From positions 1 through 43,896 of the forward strand of contig JAEPQF010000011.1 of assembly GCA_017640685.1 (NCBI GenBank): a stretch of 43,896 nt of DNA. The letters are read 5' to 3'. The DNA comes from Hyphomicrobiales bacterium (GTDB lineage Bacteria > Pseudomonadota > Alphaproteobacteria > Rhizobiales > HXMU1428-3). Both the position numbers and the translations under genes were made by a program. The notes beneath the pieces were generated by a model. That model saw nothing but the letters and a program-made list of their open reading frames with translations. It ran no database searches and was not told the DNA's origin. This document shows, piece by piece, positions 395-25,485 of the stretch. Each line of letters opens with the position of its first letter. Position 1 is the stretch's first letter.

Positions 395-642
395 GCGGAT
401 GTTTAATCGGCATCTGAAGCGCTACTAAAATATGCGGATGCCTAGTGGGCATCTGAAGCACCACTAAAATGTGCGGTTGTTTTTGGGCAAGCTGAAGCAT
501 AATAAACAAATTTATACGAAGAAGGAGTGACGCCGACACGGTTGCATAGTGGGCAACTGAAGTGCAAAAAAGGCGGCAGGACATGGCGAAGCACCAGCAA
601 AGTCCGGCGCAGCGCGGTTGTAGGTGGGCAACCTAAAGCGCT
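395..642 (+). repeat. Hairpin-repeat locus A, five copies
   Basis: This fills the 321-base gap between gph and the convergent agmatinase gene. Five copies of the hairpin family are seen at about 395-422, 433-461, 471-500, 537-564 and 611-642. Each has the order outer stem, inner stem, loop, inner stem, TGAA or TAAA, outer stem, and most are followed by ACTAAAA. The inner arm is GGATG or GGTTG and is answered by CATC or CAAC; outer arms include CAC/GTG at 537-564 and AGCGC/GCGCT at 611-642. A short G-rich stretch at about 517-531 (acgaagaaggagtg) recurs near 16650. A separate CTGCTG/CAGCAG hairpin lies at 669-683. No protein-coding gene is credible here. Confidence 0.85.
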
Positions 643-712
643 ACTAAAAAGAGCCGCACCTCGTAGGCCTGCTGCCTCAGCAGCAGAATAGCGGTGAGAG
701 AAAATAGAGCAT

Positions 713-1621
713 CTACCCCAATCGAGACGGATCAACCAAAGCATAACTCAAAAGTTTATAAGCTAATTTTGCAGCAAGAAAATCACACGCATGCAGTCCA
801 GGGCGCGGTGCGAGTTCAACAATATCTCCGCCAACAATCGTTCCAACATCAGCAGCAGCTCTTAAAACATCCAAAGCCTGATACCAATCCAAGCCACCAG
901 GTTCCGGCGTGCCTGTAGCTGGCATTAAGCTGCTATCAAAACAATCAAGATCAAAAGTCACATAAATTGGTTTGTCTTTTAAGGGAGCAACAATCTCTTC
1001 AATGCGCCAGTTCTTGGCATCGCTCGCCCAATGCAAAGTGATACGATCTCTGTTCGCTTCTAAAAATGGGATTTCTTCTTTCGATATATTTCGCAAACCA
1101 ACACCAACAAGAGAAAGAGATTTATAATCCAAAACCCGGCGCATAGCAGCCGCGTGAGAAAAATGCTCTCCCTCATAACCATCTCGCAGATCAGCATGAG
1201 CATCAAATTGAAGAACAACCAAATCATCATATAAATCAACAAAGGGCCGAATGGCACCAGCGGTCAAACTATGTTCACCACCAAAAACAAGAGGAAATTT
1301 TCTCTCATTCAACACATCACGCACCATCAAAGCAACTTGCTTTAAAGCCGATTCAATTGTACCTGCAATTGGTTGAGGTTGTAATGTCGCAACTTCATAA
1401 TCTGAGATAATCTCATCCCAAAATTCTTCATCAAAAAGCTCAACTTCTTTGCTTGCTTCTAAAATGGCTTTCGGCCCAAGAGCAGTACCCCCTTGAAATG
1501 AAACTGATTGCTCAAGGCCAAAAGGAATGACAACGGCTTTCGCTAAATGAGGCTGAGCAGATCCAGGACGAACCGGATCAAGAAATGCCAAATCAGCTGG
1601 CAAGTAATTTAAACGCCGCAT
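713..1621 (-). CDS. speB: Agmatinase / ureohydrolase family protein
   Basis: A 302-residue protein of normal length for the arginase/agmatinase family. The binuclear manganese site is complete: GGEHS (His117), DAHADLRD (Asp140, His142, Asp144) and FDLDCFDSS (Asp224, Asp226). The substrate-loop signature ATGTPEPGG is also present. The family hydrolyses guanidino compounds to urea; agmatine to putrescine is the commonest reaction, but the sequence alone does not exclude guanidinobutyrate or similar substrates. The start lies 14 bases after the stop of the decarboxylase gene upstream, so the two are almost certainly co-transcribed, which supports a polyamine role. The gene ends toward the hairpin-repeat locus. 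Confidence 0.88.
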   Translation of the reverse strand: MRRLNYLPADLAFLDPVRPGSAQPHLAKAVVIPFGLEQSVSFQGGTALGPKAILEASKEVELFDEEFWDEIISDYEVATLQPQPIAGTIESALKQVALMVRDVLNERKFPLVFGGEHSLTAGAIRPFVDLYDDLVVLQFDAHADLRDGYEGEHFSHAAAMRRVLDYKSLSLVGVGLRNISKEEIPFLEANRDRITLHWASDAKNWRIEEIVAPLKDKPIYVTFDLDCFDSSLMPATGTPEPGGLDWYQALDVLRAAADVGTIVGGDIVELAPRPGLHACDFLAAKLAYKLLSYALVDPSRLG

Positions 1622-1635
1622 ATAATTTGCCCCCT

Positions 1636-2862
1636 TTAAGAAATAAGCTTAATGACCTCAGCAGATTGAATCTCTGCAGATGAAGACAAAGGCACAAAAT
1701 TAGAAGCCATCACATCATCCTGCAGATCAATCTCTTCATAACAGCCAAACCCATTAAACCCTGAAGCCATCACACCGCCATAAGCCCCGGTTTTATAAAT
1801 CTCAAGATAATCTCCCTCTTGAACCGAGGTCGGCAAATAAAACGGTCCCTTCATATGGTCAGCCGCATCACATGTCGGGCCCCATAATTCAAATCCAACT
1901 AATTCAGCAGGATCACTTGCCTGAATATTTGTTTTGGTGTCTTCATGACCAACCAATCGCACTGGAAAAACCCAATCACAATTCGCCGCATCATATAAAA
2001 CACCATAGCCACCATCATTGATGAAAAGCTCATTACCCCGCCTCGCATCAACCCGAACAATCAAACTCTCAGCTTCAGCCACTAATGCCCGACCAGGTTC
2101 AGCAAAAATCTCCCCTCCTTGCACCATCGGCAAAGCATCAAGAGAATTTTCAATATTGGAGACAAAGGGGTGTAAATCTAAAGGGTCGCCATCTTTGTAA
2201 AAAATCGGAAACCCTCCACCAACATTAAGAAGCTCAGCCAGCACCCCAGCGCGGCGCACCAAATCTCCCGCATAACGAATAGCCTCACCATAGCGCTCAG
2301 GGTGCAATGCTTGGCTACCCACATGAAAAGTCACCCCAAGACGCTCAGCTTTTTGGCGAACAAGTTGTAAAAGCCGAACAGCCTCCTCACCAGCAGCACC
2401 ATATTTGCGCCCCAAGGGCAAAACCGAGCCACTATCATCACAATGAAGCCGAACAAAAATAGTTAAGTCCTTCGCTTGCTCAATCACTGTAAGAATTTTC
2501 TCTAGCTCATCTTCATGATCAATCGAAAAACATCGTACCCCATAATCATAATAAGCTGAGCGAATATGCGCGCGAGACTTCACAGGGTTCATATAAAAAA
2601 GATTGGCGTTTGGAACCCCATGATAAATAAGATCCACTTCAGTCAGGCTAGCCACATCAAAATTTTTAACACCATGTTGCGCAACCTGATGAACAACACC
2701 AGGAGCCATATTCGCTTTAACGGCATAAATAAGCTGGCCGGAAAAATTCGTTTGAAACCATGACACCGCGCGCTCAATAGCACCTTGACGAAAACAACGA
2801 ACCGGATCAATCGGTCGGCGCTGTGCTAAAAATTCTTCAGCTGAAAAATAAGTTGAACGCAT
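1636..2862 (-). CDS. Ornithine/lysine decarboxylase, fold III PLP enzyme
   Basis: A 408-residue alanine-racemase-fold decarboxylase. The pyridoxal-phosphate lysine is Lys49 in YAVKAN, with HVGSQ near 180, the phosphate-binding GGGFP at 215-219, EPGR at 255-258 and the dimer-contributed catalytic cysteine (Cys331) in WGPTCDAAD. These are hallmarks of eukaryotic-type ornithine decarboxylase and bacterial L/ODC enzymes, which make putrescine or cadaverine in the cytoplasm. Substrate preference cannot be read from the sequence. It is about 30 residues longer than many alphaproteobacterial ODCs, mostly in an acidic C-terminal extension after SGFNGFGCYEE. It sits in a tight operon, 6 bases after tusA and 14 bases before the agmatinase gene. 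Confidence 0.88.
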   Translation of the reverse strand: MRSTYFSAEEFLAQRRPIDPVRCFRQGAIERAVSWFQTNFSGQLIYAVKANMAPGVVHQVAQHGVKNFDVASLTEVDLIYHGVPNANLFYMNPVKSRAHIRSAYYDYGVRCFSIDHEDELEKILTVIEQAKDLTIFVRLHCDDSGSVLPLGRKYGAAGEEAVRLLQLVRQKAERLGVTFHVGSQALHPERYGEAIRYAGDLVRRAGVLAELLNVGGGFPIFYKDGDPLDLHPFVSNIENSLDALPMVQGGEIFAEPGRALVAEAESLIVRVDARRGNELFINDGGYGVLYDAANCDWVFPVRLVGHEDTKTNIQASDPAELVGFELWGPTCDAADHMKGPFYLPTSVQEGDYLEIYKTGAYGGVMASGFNGFGCYEEIDLQDDVMASNFVPLSSSAEIQSAEVIKLIS

Positions 2863-2868
2863 CTAAGC

Positions 2869-3093
2869 TTAAGCCTTCTTCAAAATATGAACACATACAT
2901 CATCATTTTGGATTTGATCAAGCAATTCTAAGCCATCCTGCTCAGCCAAACATTGAAAATCAGCCACAGCACCAGGGTCAGTCGTTGTCACCTCAAGAAC
3001 CATCCCTGGCTCTAAGCCCCGTAAAGCTTTTTTAGTTTTCAAAACAGGCAATGGGCATAACAACCCACTCATATCCAACTTTGTCGTATCCAT
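2869..3093 (-). CDS. tusA: TusA-family sulfurtransferase
   Basis: A 74-residue protein with the TusA signature LLCPLPVLK; Cys13 is the persulfide-carrying residue. The family relays sulfur for tRNA thiolation, molybdenum cofactor or other sulfur pathways. I chose the ATG at 3093 because GAGAT sits about nine bases upstream; the alternative ATG at 3123 directly abuts its only G-rich stretch and would add ten residues that are not part of the family. It is the first gene of the tusA-decarboxylase-agmatinase operon, an association whose logic is not obvious. Confidence 0.85.
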   Translation of the reverse strand: MDTTKLDMSGLLCPLPVLKTKKALRGLEPGMVLEVTTTDPGAVADFQCLAEQDGLELLDQIQNDDVCVHILKKA

Positions 3094-3145
3094 ATAATTT
3101 ATCTCAAAACAATAAATGCCCATCCCCTAATGCAATCCATATTAC

Positions 3146-3169
3146 GAATGCATCGTGAGCATCTGAGGC
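3146..3169 (+). repeat. Hairpin repeat B, single degenerate copy
   Basis: A decayed member of the hairpin family between tusA and the secreted-protein gene. The inner stem (ATGC/GCAT) and the following TGAGGC are recognisable, but the outer stem and the standard loop are not. It reads on the plus strand although both flanking genes are on the minus strand. Confidence 0.5.
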
Positions 3170-3294
3170 AAAGAAACCCCAACCTGAAAGCACACTAAAA
3201 AACAAATAGTGCTCTTAAAGTTCAAAAAAAATCAATATTTATCTGTTTTTCCAGAAAGACAATCTAAAATTAAAAACAGGGCACAAAATAAAGA

Positions 3295-3331
3295 AAACCC
3301 TTCGCCAAGATTGACACTTAGCAAAGGGTTT
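3295..3331 (-). terminator. Terminator after the cytochrome c'-like gene
   Basis: An inverted repeat, AAACCCTT at 3295-3302 with AAGGGTTT at 3324-3331, extended by a GC pair inside. On the minus strand it is followed by a T-rich stretch. It starts 27 bases beyond the stop codon of the minus-strand gene ending at 3359. Confidence 0.6.
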
Positions 3332-3358
3332 AAAATCAATATCTTTAAAGAAAATAGC

Positions 3359-3730
3359 TTATTTAGTATTACAAGCCTTATGACCGTTTACAAGATCACC
3401 ATAAGCCGCTTTAAAAGCACCTTGGCCAGCTTTCGCAGCCGCAGCACCTTTGGTGCTTGCTTTTTGCAACAATGCCGCACAATCAACTAAATTCTTGGAA
3501 GCCTTTGCAGCTTCATTCGTTTGAAAAGCAACCACAGCCTTTTGAATATTTTTCATCTCTTTAAGAGCTTTTGCAGGATTAAAAGGTACTTTCCCACTCG
3601 CCATCTGGCCAGAAATCTTCATAGACTTGTTTATCGCTTCTAGAAAAGCACTTTGCCCACCAGCAGCATGCGCTGTTGTCAGTCCTCCCAATAGTGCCAT
3701 AACAGCAAAAATTACGGTTAGCTTCTTCAT
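3359..3730 (-). CDS. Secreted cytochrome c'-like protein lacking the heme motif
   Basis: A 123-residue protein starting at the ATG at 3730, which has GGAG seven bases upstream; the longer frame to 3778 lacks an RBS. Residues 1-23 form a signal peptide (MKKLTVIFAVMALLGGL, then AHA), so the product is periplasmic. The mature part looks like a four-helix bundle and follows the cytochrome c'/c556 pattern: a first helix with MKISGQMASGKVPFN, and a C-terminal AFKAAYGDLVNGHKACNTK where the family normally ends in a CxxCH heme site. Here only Cys120 remains; the first cysteine is His117 and the heme-ligand histidine is Asn121. The relationship is inferred by eye. If correct, it is a family member that cannot bind heme c covalently. 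Confidence 0.55.
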   Translation of the reverse strand: MKKLTVIFAVMALLGGLTTAHAAGGQSAFLEAINKSMKISGQMASGKVPFNPAKALKEMKNIQKAVVAFQTNEAAKASKNLVDCAALLQKASTKGAAAAKAGQGAFKAAYGDLVNGHKACNTK

Positions 3731-4320
3731 CACGCTCTCCTTTATGCACTTCGCACCATTATAAAAAATAATCATCAATTACTCTTCCAACCTTCAATTC
3801 TTAAAAATGCTTATAACATCTTTTAAAACCAACAACATCAAAGACTTTAAGTTCAAACGCTAAAATAATCTAAATTTTGCTCAAACAGAAAAACTAAACA
3901 TTAGAGCCAAAATCGTTCCTCATTATCATACGTCTAAATACGCTATTTTTCATCTATTTATTCAATATAAGCATCAAATAAAATCTCGCAACGTTGGTAT
4001 CATAATGAACAATCTCAGCTGAATGAAAGCTGAACAACACATTCAGCTAACGCACAAAAAGAAAAAAATAAAAATTAACAAAAAATACAACCATTACGTG
4101 CAATAAACAGTTGATTGCTCCCTTTTCATTAGTGACCCAAAAAAGGGACCTCAATCAAATTATGCATACGCATAAAACCTAAAGACGACAAGTGCTCCAC
4201 ACACTTGTCGTCTTATTTGAAAATTTCATAAAATTACTTTTGCTCCTATCATTAACTGAATTGAAACCCTCCCAATATACACTACCTAAAGTAGCAAAGC
4301 AGAAAAGAGCAACCCAAGAG
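3731..4320. other. 590-base intergenic region with two inverted repeats
   Basis: No convincing gene is seen in this AT-rich stretch. It holds AGCTGAATG (4017-4025) with CATTCAGCT (4040-4048), a 9-bp stem with a 14-base loop. It also holds a 13-bp perfect hairpin, AAGACGACAAGTG at 4182-4194 with CACTTGTCGTCTT at 4202-4214 and a seven-base loop. The second hairpin lies 106 bases before the chosen start of the DUF1045 gene. It may be a leader structure or the terminator of an unrecognised small RNA to its left, where CCCTTTT/AAAAGGG near 4120-4150 gives another possible stem. Confidence 0.5.
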
Positions 4321-5061
4321 ATGTCAAAAACAAGAGAAAGATATTTCATTGCCTACGCCCCCTCCCCCAGATCTGAAATTTGGGCGCTAGGATCTGCTTG
4401 GTTAGCCTTTAATGCTGCAACAAACGAGATACCAGAAAAAGCCTTCACTTTAGGTCTTCCCCCTGAAATTCATCTAAAAACCGTTCTACCAGCACGAAAA
4501 ACCGGGTTTAACGCCATTTTAGTCGCTCCATTTAACCTAAGAGTAGGCGTATCAGAGGAAAATCTTTGCGAAAAACTCACAACATTTAGTGAGTCACTCG
4601 CCCCCTTTCGAACCTGTTTGATGAAAGTGAAAGCAACAGGAAATAAAATCGGCATTGAGCCTTTAAGTATAGACAACAACATCCAAGATTTAGCGAATAT
4701 TACCGTGAGACATTTTAATCATTTTAGAGATATTCCCCCTGAAAAACCAATCAATCCAAAACTAAAAGAAGTTCTTACCGAACGGCAAATTGATAATTTA
4801 GTAAAATGGGGATACCCCTATTACTTCGAAGATTTCAAATTCATCATGCCATTAACGGGGGCAGTTCCCCTGCCAATGATTGAACTATTAACGAAAAACC
4901 TGCAAAACATTTTCTCCAAGCAACTTAGCCAAGGTCTAAATGTTGATAGCTTAACGCTCTTCAAACAGGAAAATAACAACAAACCAGCTCGAATGATCAA
5001 ACGTTTCCCGCTTTTGAAAAATGAATTAGAAAAAAACGTTCAAAAAATAGTATCAATCTAA
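4321..5061 (+). CDS. DUF1045-family (2H phosphoesterase-like) protein with lost catalytic motifs
   Basis: A 246-residue protein when started at the ATG at 4321. An in-frame GTG at 4192 would add 43 residues, but they fall inside a perfect hairpin, so the longer form is unlikely. The pattern RYFIAYAPSPRSEIWALGSAWL, WGYPYYFEDFKFIMPLTG and LTERQIDNL matches the DUF1045 proteins often found with phosphonate-use genes. That family carries two H-x-T/S motifs (typically GFHATL...PF and FHMTLTG). Here they read GFNAILVAPF (Asn64, Ile66) and FIMPLTG (Ile175, Pro177), so all four catalytic positions are changed. No phosphonate gene is nearby. Family membership is fairly secure; function is unknown. Confidence 0.7.
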   Translation: MSKTRERYFIAYAPSPRSEIWALGSAWLAFNAATNEIPEKAFTLGLPPEIHLKTVLPARKTGFNAILVAPFNLRVGVSEENLCEKLTTFSESLAPFRTCLMKVKATGNKIGIEPLSIDNNIQDLANITVRHFNHFRDIPPEKPINPKLKEVLTERQIDNLVKWGYPYYFEDFKFIMPLTGAVPLPMIELLTKNLQNIFSKQLSQGLNVDSLTLFKQENNNKPARMIKRFPLLKNELEKNVQKIVSI

Positions 5062-5072
5062 CTCCCTGAACT

Positions 5073-5109
5073 ATTGCCCCCTAAATGATAAAACATGATT
5101 GGGGGCAAT
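5073..5109 (+). terminator. Inverted repeat after the DUF1045 gene, probable terminator
   Basis: ATTGCCCCC at 5073-5081 pairs with GGGGGCAAT at 5101-5109 around a 19-base loop, 12 bases after the stop codon. The stem is G+C rich, but the downstream sequence has only scattered T residues, so intrinsic termination is plausible rather than certain. Confidence 0.5.
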
Positions 5110-5285
5110 TCATCATTGCCTTAAACAACCTCCCCAAAGCATGATACATAAAGCCATGCTTCAAAACTCCCCAATTACCGCCATTGATTTTGTTCCCCTT
5201 TCATCATAGATGTACCCTTAAGAATTAAGAAAACCATTTCCTTTCGAAGCCACAAACTTCGATCAAAATAGAAAACGCGTTAATC

Positions 5286-5690
5286 ATGACAGCGAAAACA
5301 AATTTCAAAGCAGATGCTCATAGAAACATCCAACATATCTTCATCAAAGATTTAGAACTGATGGCAGTCATCGGTGTCTATGATCATGAAAAAAACAACC
5401 GCCAACGTGTCGTTGCAAATATTGATATTACAGTTCAGGAAAACCCTGATGCAGCAGATGAAATTGACGAAGTTGTTTGCTATCATAAGGTGGTGAAAAA
5501 AATTCAATCCATTTGTGAAAATGGACATGTCCATTTACTAGAAACCCTGGCAGAAACCATCGCAGAAAGTTGTCTTGAGGATAAAAGAATTTTAGCAATC
5601 CGCGTGAAGTTAGAAAAACCAGAAGCTTTAAGAGAAGCAGCCAGTGTTGGGGTGGAAATTGAGCGCCTACAAAAAGGCACGAAAGACTAA
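5286..5690 (+). CDS. folB: Dihydroneopterin aldolase
   Basis: A 134-residue protein of usual FolB length. It shows the family pattern IFIKDLELMAVIGVYDHEKNNRQRV at the start, where the Glu/Tyr region contacts the pterin, then CYHKVVKKI in the middle and the helical LLETLAETIAESCL containing a conserved glutamate. The C-terminal strand (IRVKLEKPEAL) includes the catalytic lysine region. It cleaves dihydroneopterin to hydroxymethyl-dihydropterin in folate synthesis. Other folate genes are not present in the window. The gene precedes uvrC by 67 bases and may share its transcript. Confidence 0.88.
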   Translation: MTAKTNFKADAHRNIQHIFIKDLELMAVIGVYDHEKNNRQRVVANIDITVQENPDAADEIDEVVCYHKVVKKIQSICENGHVHLLETLAETIAESCLEDKRILAIRVKLEKPEALREAASVGVEIERLQKGTKD

Positions 5691-8441: not shown

Positions 8442-8455
8442 GCGACGGCTGCTTT

Positions 8456-8577
8456 GCGCCAGTTGCAAGTGGGCAACCTAAAGGCGCATTAAAAAAGGCA
8501 ACCTAAAGGCGCACTAAAAGAGGCAAGCTGAAGGCGCACTAAAAAGACGGTTGCTTGTGGGCAATCTGAAGGAAGCA
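8456..8577 (+). repeat. Hairpin-repeat locus C between pgsA and moaD
   Basis: Two full and two half copies fill the pgsA-moaD gap. The first (8456-8487) pairs GCGCC with GGCGC and GTTGC with GCAAC. Two 3'-half copies (about 8497-8513 and 8522-8538) hold the right inner arm, TAAA or TGAA, then GGCGC and ACTAAAA, as if made by slippage. The last (about 8546-8577) pairs GGTTGC with GCAATC and departs from the standard tail: instead of TGAAGC it reads TGAAGGAAGC, which creates the moaD ribosome-binding site. Confidence 0.85.
8568..8575 (+). promoter_or_regulatory. moaD ribosome-binding site inside a hairpin repeat
   Basis: GAAGGAAG lies 9 bases before the moaD ATG and forms the tail of the last hairpin copy of locus C. 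Because it sits immediately after the inner stem, folding of the hairpin could control access to it. That regulatory role is inference. Confidence 0.6.
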
Positions 8578-8584
8578 CTAAAAA

Positions 8585-8836: not shown

Positions 8837-8840
8837 TAAC

Positions 8841-9061
8841 GCGGTTGTTAGTGGGCAATCTAAAGCGCAATAAAAAAGCGCGGTTGTTTCGTGGCGGTTT
8901 CTAGTGGGGAACTGAAGCCACGTCAAAAGAGTGGTAGCTTTCGGACCGGTTTCTGGTGAGAAACCTGAAGGCTCATCATAAAAAAAAGAGCACTAACGCG
9001 ACGGTTGCTTGTGCGGATGCTTTGTGGGCATCTGAAGCACAGAAAAAAGCAACCGAAGGAG
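8841..9061 (+). repeat. Hairpin-repeat locus D between moaD and moaE, with a nested copy
   Basis: Five copies separate moaD from moaE. They are at 8841-8868, at 8890-8922 (outer CGTGGC/GCCACG, inner GGTTTC/GGAACT), and at about 8945-8972 (inner GGTTTC/GAAACC). The last two are nested: an outer copy at 9003-9061 (GGTTGCTT at 9003-9010 with AAGCAACC at 9047-9054) has in its loop a complete inner copy at 9011-9040 (GTGC/GCAC and GGATGC/GCATCT). The compensatory stem changes among these neighbours are the clearest evidence that structure is conserved. Confidence 0.88.
9055..9061 (+). promoter_or_regulatory. moaE ribosome-binding site inside a hairpin repeat
   Basis: GAAGGAG sits eight bases before the moaE ATG and directly follows the outer stem of the nested repeat. 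It fixes the moaE start at 9070 and replaces the TGAAGC seen in ordinary copies. Confidence 0.75.
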
Positions 9062-9069
9062 CAAAAAAA

Positions 9070-9540
9070 ATGACAATTCGCATCCAGACGGAAGATTTCG
9101 ATATAACTAAAGAAATCAATCTTCTTAAAGAAGAGCGTAAAAAAAGCGGACAACAAGATGTTGGGGCGATTGTCACTTTCACAGGCACTGTAAGAGATAT
9201 GGCCGGCAAAACGCCAATTAACTCGATGAGCCTCGAACACTACCCTGGCATGACAGAAAAAGAGCTCACTGATATTGCTGAAGAGGCAAACAAGAGATGG
9301 CCGCTCTTAGGCACAACCATCATCCATCGTATTGGCGATCTAGAACCAGGCGACAATATCGTTCTAGTTGTCACACTCTCCTCTCACAGACACGCAGCCT
9401 TTGAAGCAGCTGACTTTTTGATGGATTTTCTCAAAAGCAAAGCCCCTTTCTGGAAAAAAGAGCAACCACTTGAGGGAGAAGCTAACTGGGTTGACGCCAG
9501 AGATAGCGACAAACAAGCACTCTCTCGCTGGGAGAAATAA
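9070..9540 (+). CDS. moaE: Molybdopterin synthase catalytic subunit
   Basis: A 156-residue protein, the normal MoaE length. The frame is open back to 8956, but that extension is repeat DNA and the ATG at 9070 has an excellent RBS. Family landmarks are GAIVTFTGTVRD, MSLEHYPGM, IIHRIGDLEPGDNIV, SSHRHAAFEAADFLMDFLK and the C-terminal KSKAPFWKKE. These include the conserved Arg/Lys residues that bind the precursor and accept MoaD-carried sulfur. MoaE acts as a heterotetramer with MoaD in the cytoplasm. A molybdenum cofactor pathway implies molybdoenzymes elsewhere in the genome. Confidence 0.93.
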   Translation: MTIRIQTEDFDITKEINLLKEERKKSGQQDVGAIVTFTGTVRDMAGKTPINSMSLEHYPGMTEKELTDIAEEANKRWPLLGTTIIHRIGDLEPGDNIVLVVTLSSHRHAAFEAADFLMDFLKSKAPFWKKEQPLEGEANWVDARDSDKQALSRWEK

Positions 9541-15137: not shown

Positions 15138-16598
15138 GTGGCAATCAAAGATGAGCATGATCTTGAGTTAAAACAAGAGACAAAAGAAACAACCAATTTA
15201 AGCTCATTTTTAGAGAAAAACTGGCTCGTGAAAACTATAAAAACTCTCAATACCAAACTAAAATCGAGCAAGTTAAACAAATGGAGCCTCTCTCCCTGGC
15301 TCCCAAAAGGCTTGTATGCCCGCACCATCCTCATCATCGCAATGCCGCTCATCCTATTGCAAACCATTCTTTTGTTTGTCTTTATGGAGCGCCACTGGAA
15401 CAACATCACTAGAAGATTATCCGCGGCAACCGCAAGAGACGTCGCAGCCATTATTGAAATTTACAATCGATATCCGCAAGATAAAGACCACCAAAAGCTC
15501 ATCGACATCGCACGCAATCAAATGAGCATTTCGTTTCAGGTGCTCCCCAAAAGCAAACTTCCTAAAAAAACGGCACGCCCCTTTTATTCAATTCTAGATA
15601 GACGCCTCACTAAGGAACTAAGACGTCGCATTGATCGCCCAATTTGGGTGGACACTGTTGGTCAATCAAAATTTGTAGAAATTCGTGTAGCCCTAGAAAA
15701 ATCCACTCTTAAATTCCTGGCACACAGAAACCATACATACGCCTCAAACTCTCATATCTTTGTGCTCTGGATGATCGGTTCATCAACAGTGCTAATGGGT
15801 ATTGCGCTCTTATTCTTGCGCAATCAAATCAGACCAATTTTAAAACTCTCAGAAGCAGCTGAAAGTTTTGGTAAAGGCAGACCATTGCCAGAGAACTTCA
15901 GTCCAAGAGGGGCTAAAGAAGTGCGCCAAGCCTCATTAGCATTCATTGAAATGCGAGATCGTATCAACCGGCATGTTGAACAACGAACAACGATCCTCGC
16001 GGGCGTTAGTCATGACCTTCGCACCATCCTAACAAGAATGAAATTACAACTCGCATTTCTTGATGATGAAGACGAAATCAAAGCGTTGCAAAAAGATGTC
16101 GATGAAATGCAATCCATGCTTGAAGATTACATGGCCTTCGCAAAAGGTGATAATTCAGAAGAAACCAAATTCACTGATGTCGGTGAAATTTTAAATGAAA
16201 TTCACACACACGCAAAATTATCAAAAGATGATATTAACCTGCGCGTATTACCAAAATCAATTATGCTCCCACTGCGTCGCAATAGTTTCAAAAGGGCAAT
16301 TAATAACCTCGTCACTAACGCAATGCGTTATGCTGATACGATAAATATAAACGCCTCAAAGGGGCGCAAATGGTTGATCATCACAATTGATGATAACGGC
16401 CCAGGCATCCCAAAAGAAAAGCGCGAAGAGGTTTTTAATGCGTTTTTACGCTTAGATGATTCAAGAAATCAAAATGAAGGCAACACAGGCCTCGGCCTCT
16501 CAATCGCAAGAGACATAATCCGCAGTCATGGCGGTGATATCAGGTTAGAAGAAAGCACCCTTGGCGGTCTTCGAGCAAAAGTGCGCGTGCCTATCTAG
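15138..16598 (+). CDS. Sensor histidine kinase, EnvZ-like
   Basis: A 486-residue inner-membrane kinase. Two transmembrane segments (about 60-83 and 206-228) enclose a periplasmic sensor region of about 120 residues, followed by a HAMP linker and the H-box AGVSHDLRTILTRMK with phospho-acceptor His292. The ATPase domain shows the N-box NLVTNAMRYAD, the G1 box DDNGPGIP and the G2 box NTGLGLSIARDIIRSHGG. It presumably phosphorylates the PetR-like regulator upstream. The GTG start at 15138 has AAAGG about ten bases before it. The first 50 residues are charged and precede the first membrane helix, longer than usual for this group. Confidence 0.88.
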   Translation: MAIKDEHDLELKQETKETTNLSSFLEKNWLVKTIKTLNTKLKSSKLNKWSLSPWLPKGLYARTILIIAMPLILLQTILLFVFMERHWNNITRRLSAATARDVAAIIEIYNRYPQDKDHQKLIDIARNQMSISFQVLPKSKLPKKTARPFYSILDRRLTKELRRRIDRPIWVDTVGQSKFVEIRVALEKSTLKFLAHRNHTYASNSHIFVLWMIGSSTVLMGIALLFLRNQIRPILKLSEAAESFGKGRPLPENFSPRGAKEVRQASLAFIEMRDRINRHVEQRTTILAGVSHDLRTILTRMKLQLAFLDDEDEIKALQKDVDEMQSMLEDYMAFAKGDNSEETKFTDVGEILNEIHTHAKLSKDDINLRVLPKSIMLPLRRNSFKRAINNLVTNAMRYADTININASKGRKWLIITIDDNGPGIPKEKREEVFNAFLRLDDSRNQNEGNTGLGLSIARDIIRSHGGDIRLEESTLGGLRAKVRVPI

Positions 16599-16737
16599 AG
16601 CACCTTATATTTTTATAAATTCTTAAAACACACATTTTCAATTAGCATTACGAAGAAGGGAGTGCTCTTCTTCAGAGCATGGAGATGACGCTGCTTAGCA
16701 CCCAGCAGCGCTTAGCGCCACACTTCGGAAGGCAACA

Positions 16738-16845
16738 GTGCGGATGTTGATGGGCATCTGAAGCACAACAAAAACAGTGCGGATGCTAGTGGGCATCTGA
16801 AGCACAACAAAAACAGCGCGGTTGCTAGTGGGCAACCTGAAGCGC
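16738..16845 (+). repeat. Hairpin-repeat locus E, three tandem copies of 39-bp period
   Basis: Three nearly perfect copies at 16738-16766, 16777-16805 and 16816-16845 start exactly 39 bases apart and are separated by the same ten-base spacer AACAAAAACA. The first two have outer stem GTGC/GCAC and inner stem GGATGC/GCATCT; the third has GCGC/GCGC and GGTTGC/GCAACC. Both stems therefore change together within one array while the TAGTGG loop and the TGAA bulge stay. The array sits between convergent genes. A separate hairpin (about 16690-16710, GCTGCT/AGCAGC) lies just before it. Confidence 0.9.
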
Positions 16846-16872
16846 AGTAAATAACACGTGAGACAAAAAAGA

Positions 16873-17736: not shown

Positions 17737-17739
17737 GAA

Positions 17740-19038: not shown

Positions 19039-20454
19039 ATGACTAAAATAGACCCAATACATATCATAGGTGGTGGCCTAGCAGGCTCAGAAGCCGCTTG
19101 GCAAGCCGCTAACGCAGGTGTTCCAGTAATCTTGCATGAAATGCGCCCAACAGTGAAAACAGACGCTCACCAAACAGAAGGCTTGGCTGAGCTGGTTTGC
19201 TCTAACTCTTTTCGCTCAGATGATCATGAAAATAACGCCGTTGGCCTTCTTCATGAAGAAATGCGCCAGCTAAACTCCATCATCATGGCCAGCGGAGACA
19301 AACATAAACTCCCAGCCGGCGGCGCCTTAGCGGTTGATAGAGATCATTTTTCAGATGAAGTAACAAACGCTCTTGAAGCCCATGACCTCATCACTATTGA
19401 GCGCGGTGAGGTCGATACCATTCCTCCAGCGGAATGGGATAATGTCATCATCGCAACCGGGCCTTTAACCTCAGAGAATTTAAGCAAAGCCATAATGGAT
19501 CTAAGCGGTGCCGATAGCCTTGCTTTCTTTGATGCCATCGCCCCGATCATCCATAAAGACAGCATCGACTTTGACAAAGTCTGGATGCAATCTCGCTATG
19601 ACAAAGTCGGCCCTGGCGGCACAGGAGCTGATTACATCAATTGCGCTATGGATGAGCAAGAATATAACGCATTTATTGACGCACTGTTAGAGGGTGAAAA
19701 AACAGACTTCAAAGAGTGGGAAACCAACACCCCCTATTTTGATGGCTGCTTACCAATTGAAGTGATGGCCGAACGGGGCAGAGAAACATTACGCCACGGC
19801 CCAATGAAGCCCGTTGGCCTCACCAACCCTCACAAAGAAGAAAAGTCCCACGCCATTGTTCAACTTCGCCAGGATAATGCCCTCGGCACTTTGTGGAACA
19901 TGGTTGGATTTCAAACAAAATTGAAATATGGTGAGCAAACCAAAATTTTCCAAATGATACCTGGGCTGGAAAATGCCGTCTTTGCCCGCCTTGGTGGCTT
20001 ACATCGAAACACATTTCTAAACAGCCCCGAAGTACTCGACAATCAACTCCGCTTGAAAACAGACAAACGCCTGCGCTTTGCGGGCCAAATCACTGGCGTT
20101 GAAGGCTATGTTGAAAGCGCCGCCACAGGCCTTATTGCTGGCAGATTAGCCGCTGCTGAAAGATTAGGAATTGAACTTAGCTCCCCGTCAATAGAAACAG
20201 CTCATGGCGCGCTGATTAATCACATAACAGGCGGCCATCTCAGCTCACATTTCTCAGGTGGTTTAAAAAGCTTTCAGCCAATGAACATCAATTTCGGTCT
20301 GATCCCACCAGTAACAGACATCCCGAAAAAAGATGAAGAAGGAAGGCGCCTACGCGGCAAAGAAAAGTCCCGCCTTAAAAAACAACTCATGGCAAAACGC
20401 GCGCTCTCAACGCTTATTGAATGGAGCGAGAAAAACCCAGTTAAAACAGAATAG
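19039..20454 (+). CDS. trmFO: Methylenetetrahydrofolate-tRNA (uracil-5-)-methyltransferase
   Basis: A 471-residue FAD- and folate-dependent enzyme that makes 5-methyluridine at position 54 of tRNA. The N-terminal dinucleotide-binding motif is [16 protein letters not shown], followed by HEMRP and [12 protein letters not shown], which includes a conserved cysteine. [22 protein letters not shown] near the C-terminus is the second FAD signature. This family is typical of Gram-positives and alphaproteobacteria that lack the SAM-dependent TrmA. A bidirectional terminator follows. Confidence 0.93.
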
Positions 20455-20470
20455 CTTACCCAAATAAAAA

Positions 20471-20496
20471 GACCTCTTAAAAGAGAGGTCTTTTTT
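20471..20496. terminator. Bidirectional terminator between trmFO and the DUF4153 gene
   Basis: GACCTCT at 20471-20477 pairs with AGAGGTC at 20484-20490. Six T's follow on the plus strand and five A's precede, giving a T-run on the minus strand too. It lies between two convergent stop codons at 20454 and 20514. Confidence 0.85.
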
Positions 20497-20513
20497 AGCA
20501 CTACTTACAGTCC

Positions 20514-22406
20514 TCATTCAAAAACTGTCTCTGCATCAGCCACAAACAGTGAGAATTTAATATATGTCGTAAACTCAAAATCAGATGTTTCTTTATCTTC
20601 AAAACAATTAAAATTCGATACGTAAAGCCTAAGCTTTTGAGCACTCCCCTCTAAACTATCAATAGGAAAAGCTTTCCAAATTTTACGCTTAGCTTTACCC
20701 TTATTTTCATTCATTTGGGCAGATGCAGCCCTATAAACATCATTGAGTGAAAATTGTCCCAAACTTTCAGCCTCTTGGCCGTGCCCTTTTAAAACAATGA
20801 GTTTTTGATCTTTAATTTGAAATGAAAGTTTAAGATCTGTCCCATTAAATGGAACAGTTAAAGCTCTTTTATAACTTATATCAGAGCGAGATTTCGACAA
20901 ACTAAATGGACCAAACACACTGCCCTTAAAAGGAACCTGGAAAGAATAAGGACCAGAAGCATAAAACGTACGTTTAACAAACCCGCTTCCTTTTGCCACA
21001 TTTTTCCTAAACCCAAGCTTTTCATCAATCTTCGCAATAATAGGGTTATTCCAAGATGGTTTACGTCGCTCTAAATAATTGAAATGAGCCCCTTGAGCAG
21101 GCCTGTCTTCCTCAACCAAAAGCACACGTAGATAGTCGGCCCGTTGTTCTTTTCTAAAAAAACGAAGCGCATTTCTTATTTTTCTTTTTGTTTTCCGCTC
21201 AGAAGCTGTCGTTGCTTGAAACGGCTTTTTAATCACCCCATTCTCTATGGACCCAACCTCTGTGAGCAAAGAAACAAGTTTGTGCTTTTGTGAATAAACG
21301 GAAACCGTCTCGGCCCCCCAAGGCCCAAAACTTGAAACCCCTAAAATGACTGTTGCTAAAAAGAGAATAACTCTCAAATCAAAGTCGCGGTTTTTATATT
21401 CCAGATATAAACCATAAAGAATGAGAGCAAGAGACCAGAAGAAAAAGGCAAATAGAAAATAGCGCTTCGGTGTCATCCCATATTCAGTCACGCGAATGGA
21501 ATGAGCGGCAAACAACAATCCCATCGGGATGATTAAAAACAAAAACCAATATTTATGAAAAAACCGAACCAGCGCACCACCAACATTACGCGTTGGAAAC
21601 GCCATCAAATAAGTCCCGATCCCTAAAATGATAACCGCCAAGCCATACCAACCAATTTGGCCACTTGGAAAAACACCTGACAAACCAACCTTTACAGCCA
21701 ATCCATGAAAGAGCAAAACAAACATAAAGAAAAACGGCACAAACACATATTTTACAAAAAGTCCTGTAACCTTAGACATCAATTCAGTGGGAACAGTTTC
21801 TTCAACCTCAACGTCATACTCCTGTGGCAGCATTGAGAGCCAAAACACCGGCGTTATAAAAAACGTACAAATCTGAAAAATATATTTGTATAAATCGCCC
21901 GAAACCCGCGTGTTAAACAAGGCCCCATAAACTGCGAACAATAAAGAAAACAACCCCGCAATAATCATCCCGCCGATAATGGCTATAACCAGTGTAAACC
22001 AAAATTCATGATTAAAAAGCCAATAGGCCCGGTTGTTTTTAGGAGCAAAAAAGTAGGCAACTGAACTGGCACCAAGTAATGTCGCAACAGCCAACATCAT
22101 GTGATGCAAACCAACAAAGTCCGCAAAATAAAAAAGCCCAACAACGACGGCACCAATCACAAGGGAAACAAAATAAACATACCAAGCAGCTTCTTTGCGG
22201 TGCTCAGCAACAAAAACAGATCCAACAAAAACAAAGAAAAGACTTATAAGCCCAAAATAAATTTCCTCAGTTAAATTTAAGGATTTATGGAAGAAGACCA
22301 TAAGCACAGTAATGAGAGCAGCTGTAATAACAGCGAGAGGAAAGCGCCTAAACACCAAAAACACATTGGGTAAAATCGAGCCTGCAACTGAAGCTACACC
22401 AGACAT
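20514..22406 (-). CDS. DUF4153-like polytopic membrane protein
   Basis: A 630-residue protein from the ATG at 22406, with GGGAG upstream (the frame opens at a TTG at 22421). Residues 1-370 hold about ten or more hydrophobic segments, many of them Phe/Val/Ile rich. Then comes SFGPWGAETVSVYSQKHKL, a pattern seen in DUF4153 proteins, and a soluble basic C-terminal domain of about 230 residues. The function of DUF4153 is not established. It lies 90 bases downstream of the SGNH hydrolase gene on the same strand, so the two may work together at the cell surface. The family call is by pattern. Confidence 0.7.
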   Translation of the reverse strand: MSGVASVAGSILPNVFLVFRRFPLAVITAALITVLMVFFHKSLNLTEEIYFGLISLFFVFVGSVFVAEHRKEAAWYVYFVSLVIGAVVVGLFYFADFVGLHHMMLAVATLLGASSVAYFFAPKNNRAYWLFNHEFWFTLVIAIIGGMIIAGLFSLLFAVYGALFNTRVSGDLYKYIFQICTFFITPVFWLSMLPQEYDVEVEETVPTELMSKVTGLFVKYVFVPFFFMFVLLFHGLAVKVGLSGVFPSGQIGWYGLAVIILGIGTYLMAFPTRNVGGALVRFFHKYWFLFLIIPMGLLFAAHSIRVTEYGMTPKRYFLFAFFFWSLALILYGLYLEYKNRDFDLRVILFLATVILGVSSFGPWGAETVSVYSQKHKLVSLLTEVGSIENGVIKKPFQATTASERKTKRKIRNALRFFRKEQRADYLRVLLVEEDRPAQGAHFNYLERRKPSWNNPIIAKIDEKLGFRKNVAKGSGFVKRTFYASGPYSFQVPFKGSVFGPFSLSKSRSDISYKRALTVPFNGTDLKLSFQIKDQKLIVLKGHGQEAESLGQFSLNDVYRAASAQMNENKGKAKRKIWKAFPIDSLEGSAQKLRLYVSNFNCFEDKETSDFEFTTYIKFSLFVADAETVFE

Positions 22407-22495
22407 AAAACACTCCCTCAAGCTTGAAACAAAGACACACCATGCGATTAAGTGGCCTCATTACTATCTTCTCACATCACATCAACCCAATAAAA

Positions 22496-24424
22496 TCACT
22501 GACCATATTTCTTCAAAACAGAAGATGCAGCTTTCGTCAAAGCGTCAGCAATGCGCGCTTGCCCTTCTGCAGTTGGATGAAACGCTCCCGAATAGGTCCC
22601 AGCAACCAACACTTGCAGTGGTCGTAACTTCTTGAATTTCCTCATAATAGCCCCAGATAAATGCAGATGGCCAGTTAAATATGCATCATTTGGTGTACGA
22701 AACCACCGCTCACGTGTTGCATAAGGCACATAATCAGCCGGGTTATAATGGGTCCATTCTCCATTTTCCCAAAAAGGCAGCGCTAGCTTTTCTGCCACTT
22801 CTTCCTTGCGATCCTCATTTTGAGCGCATATTCCATGGCTGGTAAATGCATCACGGTGCTCTTCAACATAGGTCCATTTAAACCGCTTGGCTTCCCGCCT
22901 CATAGCCTTATTGAGACTTTCCGCAAACCCTTCGGCCTCACTAGCTTTTTTGCTCGAAAGAGAAAACAGCGGCGAAACATCCATGCCCAAAGCCCCATCA
23001 TCACAAACCCGCTTGCCCTTGTCTCTAAAAGTCATATTCGGATAAGCAGTGAGAAGCACCCTATCTGGCTGCCCCCAGGAAATAAGAAGCACATTATGGA
23101 TCGCCCGGCGTAACGCTTTATAACGAAGCTTCAATTCTTTAATGCGTTCTTGCGCTTGGTTATGATTAAGTATAGCCCCCATCCAGCCACCAACTGTTTT
23201 GAGTTGGATAGTATCATTCACAACAACATTCGCCACAAGGCTGGAAAAATTCACATCATTGCCACCAATAGAGACCATCAACAAATCAATCCGGCGTGCA
23301 TTTTTTCGCGCACAGCGCTTAACAGGTAAATCATGTAAAACTTCTAATTTCCCATCAACCCCAAAAGCGCGGGCATATTGCTTGTTCTCAGCCCGCCTAG
23401 AGCCACATTGCGCTTCTGCAACCGCACTAATTTGAGAAAGTTTCGGTGGTGTTTCAGACCATTCATTTCCTTTAAATCTTAAAAACAACCCATGTGTAAT
23501 CTGCGCTCCAGCACAAGCAAAGCCAGCAAAAGTCACTGCCCGTTTTGGATTTTCTAAAGCAAGCTGCAAACTTGCTCGCATCTGATGTGAGTATAAAGAA
23601 CGATGACAAGACTGCCCCTGCCAGCGCGCTTTATATTTCATGAAATTACGATCAGCGAGTTCCCGCCATTTCCCAACCCGCGTAGGATAATTCTTTTTTG
23701 GAAAATGTTTTTTTGATTTTTCTTGATAAACAACAGATCTGGTTCGAGAAAAACGAACAGGCACATCTGGGTTTCCCTCACCAGAGGCAAAACTATCCCC
23801 AATCCCAACAACGAAAATATCTTTTACTTTTATTTTTTCTTTTAAAAACGTGCCATCAGACACTTTTACATCAACCGTCGCCCCCAATGGATAAGGAATA
23901 TCAAACTCAACTTTTTGATCACAAAGCGCTTTAACCGTTTTGATGCTTTTTCTTTTGCGTTGAAAATAAGTCATCGACCAACGGCAATAAGGAAGAACAC
24001 GCGCTTCACTCGTTTTGTCAGCTGACATTTTATATTTAAGCCAAATCCGATGGGATTTCGGGTGTAGATAATGTTTCGTTTTCCCTGCACATTTTTGATA
24101 ACTCGCCTTTTTGCGAGACCAACACGTTTTATCATAAACGGTTCTCGCCCACCCCATCGGGTTTTCAGCTGCCAAGCGACGCTCAATACTTAAAATAGGT
24201 GTCTCACGTTCTTCATCGCTCAGTTGATCAAATTGAGTTCGATGAAGATTTGTGTGTTCAGGGCGGTGAAACAAACGAAATGGGTTTACAAGTTCCCACT
24301 CAATATACTGTTGATTGGGGGTATTCTTTGTCTCAGCCATCGCAAGAGAGCCAAAACACAAAAGCCCCAAAATAAAAGATGATACAGCAAACAAGCGAGT
24401 AAAAATTCGAGCAAAAACAAACAT
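22496..24424 (-). CDS. Secreted SGNH/GDSL hydrolase with a large N-terminal region
   Basis: A 642-residue protein with a signal peptide (about 1-30, ending SLAMA). Block I is VGIGDSFASGEG with nucleophile Ser211, block II contains Gly301 in FAGFACAGAQ, block III is SIGGND with Asn389, and block V is HPTAEG with His616. The usual aspartate three residues before the histidine is missing (the position is glycine), so a Ser-His dyad is possible, as known for some actinobacterial SGNH esterases. Residues 31-200 form a cysteine-containing domain I cannot assign. The substrate is unknown; cell-envelope lipids or acylated glycans are candidates. The ATG is preceded by GAGGG. Confidence 0.8.
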   Translation of the reverse strand: MFVFARIFTRLFAVSSFILGLLCFGSLAMAETKNTPNQQYIEWELVNPFRLFHRPEHTNLHRTQFDQLSDEERETPILSIERRLAAENPMGWARTVYDKTCWSRKKASYQKCAGKTKHYLHPKSHRIWLKYKMSADKTSEARVLPYCRWSMTYFQRKRKSIKTVKALCDQKVEFDIPYPLGATVDVKVSDGTFLKEKIKVKDIFVVGIGDSFASGEGNPDVPVRFSRTRSVVYQEKSKKHFPKKNYPTRVGKWRELADRNFMKYKARWQGQSCHRSLYSHQMRASLQLALENPKRAVTFAGFACAGAQITHGLFLRFKGNEWSETPPKLSQISAVAEAQCGSRRAENKQYARAFGVDGKLEVLHDLPVKRCARKNARRIDLLMVSIGGNDVNFSSLVANVVVNDTIQLKTVGGWMGAILNHNQAQERIKELKLRYKALRRAIHNVLLISWGQPDRVLLTAYPNMTFRDKGKRVCDDGALGMDVSPLFSLSSKKASEAEGFAESLNKAMRREAKRFKWTYVEEHRDAFTSHGICAQNEDRKEEVAEKLALPFWENGEWTHYNPADYVPYATRERWFRTPNDAYLTGHLHLSGAIMRKFKKLRPLQVLVAGTYSGAFHPTAEGQARIADALTKAASSVLKKYGQ

Positions 24425-24546
24425 TCCGCATCCCTCAAATGATGGTTTTTAAGTTTTATGAAATTTTTAATCTGAAATTATGACAAGTAAAAGGAGAGGC
24501 ATATTTTAAGATAATATTTTTCAAGAAAAACATAGCCCTTAACGCC

Positions 24547-25485
24547 TTACTTAAAGTAGAGCGTAAAAAAGGTCCTTAATGGATTAAGCTGAGTAAGTCC
24601 TACAAGACCTTTTTGGCGTTCTCGTTTCGAAGCAGTTAGTAGTGGCGGCACCAATAACCAACGACTTAAAAATGCTTTGTGTTTTGATGGCACAAGCTTC
24701 ATCTGTGCCTTAATATCCCAACTAACAACCATCAAACCATCAGTCAAACCATCTAAAACTTTTTCTTTAGCTTTGGTCTTAAATTCATTATTTTCGGGCA
24801 GAAAATCTTCGTGAAACAAATTATGCTTGCTCATAATGTCCTGGGGCAAAATCATCAAATCACGATGCAAATATCCATCAAGCTCAGAAAGAACATTCGC
24901 AATCCCAATCGCCTTTCCAGCTTCAAAACAAATCAAATCTTGTGAAGTAAATTGAGCTTCTGTTAAAATCAAACCCGCTCTTAAAAAGCTGCCAAAACGT
25001 TTTTCTAAAAATTCATGAAACTCATCAATCGTTTTTATCGGCTCTTTTTGAATTTCAAATCGAAAACTATCAACAATGGCAATCAACTCTTTAAAGAGAG
25101 GATCACCAAATTTTTCAAAATATGGCGCTAAACCATCTGCAACCGGATGGCCAACAGCTTCCCCGCGAAGTAACTTTAACAACTGGTCACGCCACCACTG
25201 CAGGCGAATTTCACCAAGCAACGGTTCATTCACTTTAAGAGAAATTTGCTGAACATCCATCAAAAACCCAAAGAGCCAAATAAGCGGAGCTCTCTGTTCT
25301 ATAGGAGCAAAACGAACACTTAAATAACCAGCATAGTCACGGCGCTTCAAACGCAGAGATATAGTCTCTAACTCTTCTAAAAAAGGTTCTTCTGTAGAAA
25401 ACACGTTATCAAACGATCCTTTATTTTTGCGCTTTGTGTAGCCACTTGCGGATGCAACACAAAAAGCGGGCATCTGAAGCAACAA
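24547..25485 (-). CDS. Phytoene/squalene synthase-like protein, NDUFAF6 type
   Basis: A protein of up to 312 residues with the all-helical prenyl synthase fold: LRLKRRDYAGYLSVRFAP, LLGEIRLQWWRDQL and AIGIANVLSELDGYLHRDLMILPQD. The first Asp-rich motif of true head-to-head synthases is absent (FLMDVQQIS), which fits the alphaproteobacterial relatives of the complex I assembly factor NDUFAF6. The next gene upstream is a homologue of NDUFAF3, supporting that role. The first 15 residues from 25485 are encoded by a hairpin repeat, so the true start may be the GTG at 25404, which has AAAGGA upstream. Catalytic activity is doubtful. Confidence 0.78.
   Translation of the reverse strand: MLLQMPAFCVASASGYTKRKNKGSFDNVFSTEEPFLEELETISLRLKRRDYAGYLSVRFAPIEQRAPLIWLFGFLMDVQQISLKVNEPLLGEIRLQWWRDQLLKLLRGEAVGHPVADGLAPYFEKFGDPLFKELIAIVDSFRFEIQKEPIKTIDEFHEFLEKRFGSFLRAGLILTEAQFTSQDLICFEAGKAIGIANVLSELDGYLHRDLMILPQDIMSKHNLFHEDFLPENNEFKTKAKEKVLDGLTDGLMVVSWDIKAQMKLVPSKHKAFLSRWLLVPPLLTASKRERQKGLVGLTQLNPLRTFFTLYFK
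25446..25482 (+). repeat. Hairpin repeat F at the start of the synthase-like gene
   Basis: A single copy with outer stem TTGC/GCAA (25446-25449, 25479-25482) and inner stem GGATGC/GCATCT. The loop is enlarged to about 14 bases. The outer stem is another compensated variant. It runs antisense to the genes around it, keeping the plus-strand orientation of the other copies. Confidence 0.8.

Follow-up and report, generated by a model that had tools for sequence, protein, structure and literature searches.

According to the accessible part of one study (PMC8266576), TnpA_REP of E. coli cuts single-stranded DNA at CT beside a REP sequence and needs the REP bulge. In P. fluorescens SBW25, tandem REP arrays on one side of the chromosome are oriented opposite to those on the other (PMC3116915, in excerpt), a partial precedent for the polarity reported here. 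The CGTC REPs are mostly alphaproteobacterial and include the Rickettsia RPE; the available portion of the source (PMC3733652) describes stems of 8-9 bp, CCA tails and mostly head-head dimers with negligible head-tail pairs, places some REP families and dimers in larger palindromes and states that no dedicated transposase is known. The orientation of IS200/IS605 insertion sequences follows replication, and IS608 and ISDra2 use the lagging-strand template (PMC5371812 and PMC6006769, both in excerpt). Here, a 39-nucleotide (nt) hairpin repeat, h, was studied in a contig of 43,896 bases with 41.8% GC from a Hyphomicrobiales bacterium (contig C22; the window, i.e. the whole stretch of DNA that was analysed), whose genome (G000, the own genome) comprises 3.5 Mb in 230 contigs. 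Copies of h number in the hundreds between the genes of one alphaproteobacterial genus, and the strand on which they lie is set by replication and not by genes.

Results

Copy number and distribution of h

A model (R1) built from three window copies matched the own genome 175 times at E<=10 and, with stricter filters, 154 times at E<=1e-4, bearing out a preliminary description of the window that had proposed a real high-copy family. Counts for this genome are lower bounds, as first-look candidates were scored in part; the best 150 of the 175 matches were listed, the last at E 8.4e-6. The genome-wide model search also found copies in other genomes of the genus, with 4 to 158 among congeners and more than 100 per genome in copy-rich species (the copy-rich genomes being G000, G002, G003, G004 and G007, and the copy-poor ones G001 and G005). 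Outside the genus, R1 detected a single copy in one of 33 other genomes of the order (G008; E 9.5e-6, L058, G008:C13). The same genome carries one Y1_Tnp gene on another contig (L078, G008:C1). A search with R2 over 385 genomes of the class, the own genome among them, returned the own genome only, at 17 candidates scored per genome, a depth at which weak or rare copies could escape. The pattern of h matched metagenome-assembled Hyphomicrobiales including, among the matches listed, Methyloligella sp. DHS20C07, OFTM213 and OFTM288. The 22 lowest of 172 matches were left out of the gene-context, skew, stem-parser, whole-alignment G·U, tag/array and flank-pairing counts given below, and copies longer than 46 nt were left out of the stem-parser and flank-pairing counts.

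Orientation of h relative to replication and genes

Orientation was compared between places, i.e. copies less than 1 kb apart merged into one, on contigs with at least two places, using for each genome the 150 listed matches (of 175 for G000, 163 for G002 and 154 for G004). Minority-strand places numbered 1 of 76 in G000, 4 of 97 in G002 and 5 of 118 in G004, as against 19.8, 35.9 and 31.9 expected from shuffling; the lowest values reached in 10,000 orientation shuffles were 10, 25 and 22, respectively. On the 1.16-Mb contig C1 of G002, for example, 30 copies were on the plus strand and 4 on the minus strand.

Third-position GC skew was calculated separately from plus- and minus-strand genes. 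The two signs agreed in all but four (L037, L038, L183 and L205) of 56 measurable stretches, and the values for the window were -0.37 and -0.38, indicating that this skew tracks mainly replication. Copies of h were on the C3-rich strand in 268 of 290 cases (89 of 95 at |skew|>=0.2) and on the A3-rich strand in 276 of 290. By the usual rule, rpoB and rrn are found on the leading strand, which is rich in G. Both rpoB (G002 C1, G004 C3) and 16S (G002 C1, G004 C18) were on the strand opposite the h majority of their contigs, that majority being one listed copy on G004 C18; for G000, no 16S was obtained and the rpoB contig held no listed h. As written, h thus matches the lagging strand in sense, and the template of that strand carries its complement, an assignment that rests on the leading-strand rule and not on a mapped origin.

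Fourteen copies were off-strand. Eight of these lay within copies of a second, longer repeat family, M (L176, L188, L191, L208, L034, L036, L040 and one in L180), as judged by eye and, for all but L176, by further evidence. The copy at L040 12804 had been considered an additional off-strand case and was rejected, as it is on the strand expected from skew. An off-strand h-like hairpin was also noted inside a called open reading frame (ORF) at L031:10069-10106, forming a G000/G002 pair with L180:11974-12011 in nearly the same context; this is either a fixed in-gene copy or a coding coincidence.

With respect to genes, 240 of the 290 copies had a called gene on either side; 29 lay within called ORFs and 21 at the ends of stretches. 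Of the 240 placed copies, 83 were codirectional with the two adjacent genes, 52 ran antisense to the pair, and 76 lay in convergent and 29 in divergent spacers; the corresponding numbers for the 653 spacers of at least 60 nt were 192, 209, 110 and 142. Convergent spacers were thus favoured and divergent ones avoided, as for REPs. The strand bias provides a practical marker, since the direction of a replichore can be read from a single contig.

An orientation held by at least 95% of places in three genomes, independently of gene direction, is what would be expected if h and M were polar chromosome signals, kept oriented for a DNA-reading factor of translocation, segregation or recombination that follows them along each replichore. 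The known signals of this kind (KOPS, AIMS, Chi) are, however, short words without structure, and both the range of 4-158 copies among congeners and the differences in sites between genomes of ~91% identity point to fast turnover. This explanation is accordingly improbable.

Copies of h in the window

R1 detected 14 copies of h in the window at E<=0.015, every one on the plus strand. The copies and their composites are as follows.

390-430, 431-469 and 470-508, plus strand: three tandem h copies with a 39-nt period (R1; repeat search)
515-699, plus strand: M copy with two h copies in its hairpins (model of M, R3, 49.9 bits, E 1.1e-8)
535-573, plus strand: h copy within the first hairpin of M (R1; place in M by eye)
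611-649, plus strand: h copy within the third hairpin of M (R1, 59.0 bits; place in M by eye)
3139-3176, plus strand: degenerate h copy, outer stem lost (by eye; R1 reports none up to E 10)
8455-8495, plus strand: h copy in the pgsA-moaD spacer (R1)
8472-8546, plus strand: three tandem right-half units of h with a 25-nt period (repeat family D4; by eye)
8547-8583, plus strand: h copy whose tail reaches into the moaD start codon (R1)
8838-8876, plus strand: h copy directly past the moaD stop (R1, 58.6 bits)
8891-8928, plus strand: h copy of GGTTTC type, apparently within a broken outer copy (R1; nesting by eye)
8945-8981, plus strand: h copy of GGTTTC type (R1)
8998-9062, plus strand: composite of nested copies, the loop of outer GCGACGGTTGC...GCAACCGAAGGAGC holding an h copy (9010-9048) (R1; flank pairing)
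16649-16863, plus strand: degenerate M copy with three tandem h copies (by eye; R3 reports none at E<=0.001)
16737-16774, 16776-16813 and 16815-16853, plus strand: three tandem h copies between convergent genes (R1; ORFs)
25445-25490, plus strand: degenerate h copy with enlarged loop (R1, 9.2 bits, E 1.5)

The gene names are those that we take to apply, with a Pfam CDP-OH_P_transf match in the presumed pgsA. The count of about 19 copies at six loci given previously is fair when halves and remnants are included. An R1 match at 8508-8545 (E 0.47) falls among the right-half units of ~8472-8546, and the copy at 25445-25490 is antisense to a minus-strand ORF (SQS_PSY, Pfam) and overlaps its start. 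A 21-nt minus-strand match at 16432-16452 (R1 E 0.0025) was dropped, being unlike an h copy. Degenerate outer parts of nested copies were seen by eye around 8880-8945 and 8998-9062. Stretches resembling the composite at 8998-9070 recur at many unlinked places in several genomes of the genus. In the window, the outer 3' arm of this composite stops 7 nt before the moaE start codon (9070). Such h copies of a GGAG subtype may serve as ribosome-binding sites, because their AAGGAGC ends 7 nt before start codons (9049-9070; L031:16277, L035:14276 and L037:14044).

In keeping with the preliminary description, which had recognised no named family, the repeats of the window were without an Rfam match. 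The sole Rfam match in the window, away from the repeats, was STnc40, a Salmonella small RNA family, at 26814-26880 on the minus strand (45.7 bits against a threshold of 45); it is located between two minus-strand ORFs, overlaps the end of one of them and may be a chance or terminator-like match. An element of ~280 nt resembling a miniature inverted-repeat transposable element was noted by eye at ~29980-30262, with ends formed by CTAGGCTCAGGACCTATTAATTTCAT and its complement and an inner inverted repeat around GTTAGTTGGAGTGCAAAAA.

Architecture and stem variation

On the plus strand, h consists of outer stem, inner stem, loop, inner stem, a bulge on the 3' side only, outer stem and an A-rich tail. 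The inner stem is of type GGTTGC, GGATGC or GGTTTC, the loop is [A/G]GTG(G) or similar, the bulge is (T)GAA or (T)AAA, and the fullest tail is [A/C]ACTAAAA(G). For 202 of 290 copies, a stem parser could separate the two stems, the loop and the bulge on the 3' side; the commonest loops were AGTG and GGTG (with the inner stem taken to 7 bp) and the commonest bulges GAA, TGAA and TAAA. The shared architecture of two stems, near-constant loop and one-sided bulge put forward earlier was therefore recovered, with the exception of the copy at 3139-3176 and its lost outer stem. The bulge is less constant than had been proposed, reading as TGAA after ...CC and as GAA or TGAA after ...C owing to an ambiguity of register. 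The tail is A-rich as described; exact ACTAAAA after one A or C is a minority form, with 33 of 201 tails starting CACTAAAA or AACTAAAA. A pseudoknot between loop AGTG(G) and tail (C)CACTA was considered and rejected as a family-wide feature, being possible in 431-469 and a minority of copies (20 of 201 tails start CACTAAAA).

Pairing of the stems was examined in an alignment of 140 copies from the window and 20 own-genome stretches. Paired cells made up 96.3% of the total, 104 cells had double changes as compared to 18.8 after shuffling, and 8 of 10 pairs contained a double change; sliding the partner by one to three columns lowered pairing to 22-39%. As this alignment had been fitted to the model, the test was repeated in a less biased form on 266 distinct copies picked by the inner core alone. 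Outer pairs 1-3 were Watson-Crick in 656 of 798 cells against a shuffled value of 359.7 +/- 12.0 (maximum 396 in 1000 shuffles), which upholds the compensatory stem change of the preliminary description. The outer stem was fully paired in 171 of the 266 copies. These copies are paralogues from several related genomes and hence non-independent; the 19 different paired triplets among them argue against a single inherited pattern.

A selected RNA stem is expected to tolerate G·U better than A·C. Among copies with exactly one faulty outer pair, there were 14 G·T/T·G and 20 A·C/C·A faults. The whole alignment pointed in the opposite direction, with 159 G·U against 54 A·C; as 77 of the 159 came from a single column pair whose register is doubtful and 26 from the pair closing the loop, under a model that itself favours G·U, the single-fault count was relied upon. 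The outer-stem faults, without a G·U excess, disfavour selection on an RNA strand, which is not proof of its absence.

These counts bear on whether h is a folded RNA element, transcribed with the neighbouring genes and acting in processing, stability or translation control. The excess of G·U in the whole alignment, although mostly from two column pairs, would be in keeping with such a role, as would the enrichment between convergent genes (76 of the 240 placed copies, as compared to 110 of the 653 spacers), where mRNA 3'-end hairpins would also be found, and the frequency with which GGAG right halves are followed by a start codon (6 of 33, one orthologous site being counted twice among the six, against 22 of 416 for the others). 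Set against these are the lack of a G·U excess in single outer-stem faults, the lack of an Rfam family, and the 52 of 240 copies antisense to both neighbours and 29 in divergent spacers, whose strand is still set by replication; an RNA element is very improbable. An intrinsic terminator was likewise rejected, as no T-run follows the hairpin on the written strand (by eye). Of the two folded molecules proposed previously, RNA is thus disfavoured by the replication-set orientation and by A·C faults at least as numerous as G·T faults, which leaves single-stranded DNA. Selection on a folded molecule is itself only one reading of the paired arms, since mobile palindromes and template-switch repair also keep arms paired.

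A second repeat, M

The layout of M is TACGAAGAAGGAG - H1 - GGACATG - H2 - H3 - CCTCGGAGG.. - H4 - AATAGCCGTGAGA, with a length of 112-119 nt when bare. At E<=0.001, R3 found 105 copies in 61 stretches. In an alignment fitted to the model, all 36 pairs contained double changes, with 653 double-change cells against 206 after shuffling; G·U exceeded A·C (226 against 113), 86 of the 226 being one fixed G·T column. Of 102 M copies in stretches with h, 97 shared the direction of the h majority there, and three more M copies were in stretches without h; many h copies lie in M hairpins, including 535-573 and 611-649. M occurred in all eight genomes of the genus and in 2 of 53 other genomes of the order, which belong to two other families (G032, 12 matches; G033, 3 matches), at up to 61 candidates scored per genome. 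The best Rfam matches of a bare M copy and of window block 380-720 were far below the gathering score.

Arrays, nesting and turnover

Neighbouring copies of h within 100 nt were head-to-tail in 115 of 117 pairs and opposite in 2, with 39 and 40 nt as the commonest periods. Copies of h nested within h were counted by hand at 42 places, some orthologous to one another; the underlying 71 rows mostly gave one place read twice, and three false cases (L131 6430, L172 14626 and L189 14936) were removed. Flanks paired across a copy over at least 7 bp in 20 of 279 cases (shuffled mean 2.7, maximum 9) and over at least 6 bp in 38 of 279 (shuffled 11.3, maximum 22), counts that take in copies inside M hairpins and some chance pairs. 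Precise insertions at T^AGTGG were read at L050:1659, L179:17249, L116:152 and L038:12041, where the inner copy ends AAAAG in three cases and AAAAA in L050. Guide-target pairing of the tail TAGTG with the loop CACTA was considered and dropped, because the tails of precisely nested copies vary there.

Turnover was apparent between related genomes. Copies of h occupy the pgsA-moaD spacer of G000, G002 and G004, with a three-level nest seen by eye in G004, whereas G001, G003 and G005 have this spacer bare. Between moaD and moaE, h occurs in G000, G002 and G003, is missing from G001 and G005, and is represented by only a short end in G004. In this region, G002 and G004 are ~87-92% identical. At an orthologous copy, the outer loop is empty in G004 and filled in G002. 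One tandem unit of 40 nt occurs in G002 but is missing from G004, with 24 of 24 flanking bases identical, and a 132-nt block with an h copy is present in G004 only (23 of 24 flanking bases). Five filled/empty pairs were used of 31 indel rows, many of the rest being ordinary sequence or misalignment.

Such arrays could also arise without a transposase if h and M spread by replication slippage and template switching at lagging-strand hairpins. One misfolding event would fix both arms, giving seemingly compensatory pairs, would add tandem units and would build hairpins in loops, and polarity would reflect the asymmetric fork. The common periods of 39 and 40 nt, the filled/empty pairs that differ by one tandem unit and the 25-nt half-unit repeats of the window are consistent with this, as are the similar numbers of G·T (14) and A·C (20) single faults, expected if neither strand were selected for folding, and the failure to find an enzyme (PF01797 in one and RVT_1 in two of the eight genus genomes). 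Slippage alone does not, however, move copies far, yet more than 150 copies are dispersed; the pgsA-moaD spacer is filled in three genomes and bare in three relatives, and composites like 8998-9070 occur at many unlinked places. This explanation is rather unlikely.

Discussion

The reading that we prefer, at a probability of roughly 0.55, is that h copies are non-autonomous mobile palindromes which behave like REPs and which, at the replication fork, are copied and inserted in the form of folded single-stranded DNA. When the lagging-strand template becomes single-stranded, 5'-CTTTTAGT-[outer]-TTCA-[inner]-CCACTA-[inner]-[outer] would fold. An HUH-type or similar strand-transferase would then recognise the stem, the TTCA bulge, the loop and the 5' T-rich tail, cut beside CT and transfer the strand to further single strands that lie exposed. 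The preferred targets would be hairpin loops (at T^AGTGG in the written sense, which is CCACT^A in the template), and the use of loops on single-stranded template would account for both nesting and replichore polarity. The A-run of the tail is followed by G in 123 of 179 copies against a background of 31%, i.e. there is a CT at the template-strand boundary. Template-strand polarity, loop targets, the one-sided bulge and tail, and this CT boundary together fit strand transfer of folded single-stranded DNA. The mobilising enzyme may be lost, divergent or supplied from outside.

Several observations weigh against strand transfer. PF01797 (Y1_Tnp) was not found in seven of the eight genus genomes, the own genome included, in a search whose control was positive in 5 or 6 of 14 known genomes and with G003 only 78% complete. 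Neither Y1_Tnp gene of the remaining genome, G004, has an h match in its 3.3-kb locus. A GTAG/GTGG tag within 0-2 nt 5' of the hairpin foot was present in 0 of 172 copies with at least three Watson-Crick outer pairs, on either strand. Many nested copies lack a full AGTG remnant, and two of the five filled/empty pairs differ by a single tandem 39-40-nt unit, an outcome also expected of slippage, others being ragged. Away from existing repeats, no clean empty site of a single h was found, so that dispersal by true insertion is something we infer. Six of the 14 off-strand copies are outside M. Finally, the 20 stretches of the own genome and roughly half of those of G004 had been picked for holding copies, those of G002 being spaced.

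A wider version of the mobile-palindrome reading, in which h and M are both strictly replichore-oriented, loop-targeting and self-nesting hairpin parasites of single-stranded DNA, moved by a non-Y1 enzyme or by the fork itself, is offered as a tentative possibility. As part of this joint reading, and just as tentatively, h and M might grow ever longer compound hairpins on the lagging-strand template, of which up to three levels were seen.

RNA-templated copying by a reverse transcriptase, of retron or group II intron-like type and primed at the fork, was also weighed. Fork-dependent insertion is known for some retroelements, and the own genome carries one RVT_1 gene. RVT_1 (PF00078) was, however, present in only two of the eight genus genomes and was not found in the other six, the copy-rich G002, G003, G004 and G007 among them, and single faults showed no G·U excess; this route is barely credible.

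A limited literature search, with most subscription journals outside it, returned no description of h, of a REP-like replichore polarity this strong or of loop-in-loop nesting. G004 alone has two Y1_Tnp (RAYT-like) genes, located 3.5 kb apart (L077 and L079; G004:C1, ~15.0 and 11.5 kb). RAYT-driven REP mobility was rejected as an account of h on the basis of the missing tag, the Y1 gene not found in seven of eight genomes and the lack of h at the G004 Y1 loci. The CGTC tag occurred in 1 of 172 copies (variants TGTC and CCTC being outside that count), and this value and the 0 of 172 for GTAG/GTGG place h outside both tagged REP super-families, as the preliminary description had implied.

Intergenic palindrome mosaics of the RIME/BIME type are known from related bacteria (i.e. 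rhizobia); for these, the comparison is covered only by the null Rfam result and not by sequence. Integron attC sites, which act as folded single strands, are palindromes with imperfections and extrahelical bases; unlike attC, h forms arrays of 39-40 nt without cassettes between units in the stretches read. Two hallmarks of the single-strand and REP classes were found in h, namely an orientation that follows replication and a high-copy, mainly intergenic palindrome (29 of 290 copies in called ORFs). Like the REP, BIME and REPIN elements that go with RAYT in the GTAG super-family, h is a short, high-copy intergenic palindrome (PMC2817692, PMC3116915, PMC6006769 and PMC8266576, all in excerpt). 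As far as the accessible text of these sources goes, REPs also share with h a stem, bulge, loop and one-sided unpaired tail, a preference for convergent spacers, clustering and a CT at one boundary. Unlike REPs and BIMEs, h has no GTAG/GTGG tag, has no RAYT found in seven of eight genomes and is arranged head-to-tail (115 pairs against 2 inverted); its near-complete replichore polarity and nesting in loops also set it apart from REPs. From the CGTC REPs, as portrayed in the available portion of their description, h differs in its two stems around a one-sided bulge, its T-rich tail on the template strand and its head-to-tail arrangement. Like IS200/IS605 elements, h has folded hairpins, an orientation that follows replication and, on the reading preferred here, the lagging-strand template as substrate and target (excerpts of PMC5371812 and PMC6006769); unlike them, it is non-coding and a single hairpin instead of two ends, and no transposase was located.

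In sum, h works like a REP or a single-strand element yet fails the defining tags and enzyme, and for this reason it is set apart from known REPs. Short palindromic repeats are common, and the question of how they spread where no transposase is resident is also raised by the CGTC REPs (PMC3733652). With its near-complete orientation, readable loop-in-loop junctions and filled/empty sites, h makes a fork-coupled single-strand mechanism directly testable.

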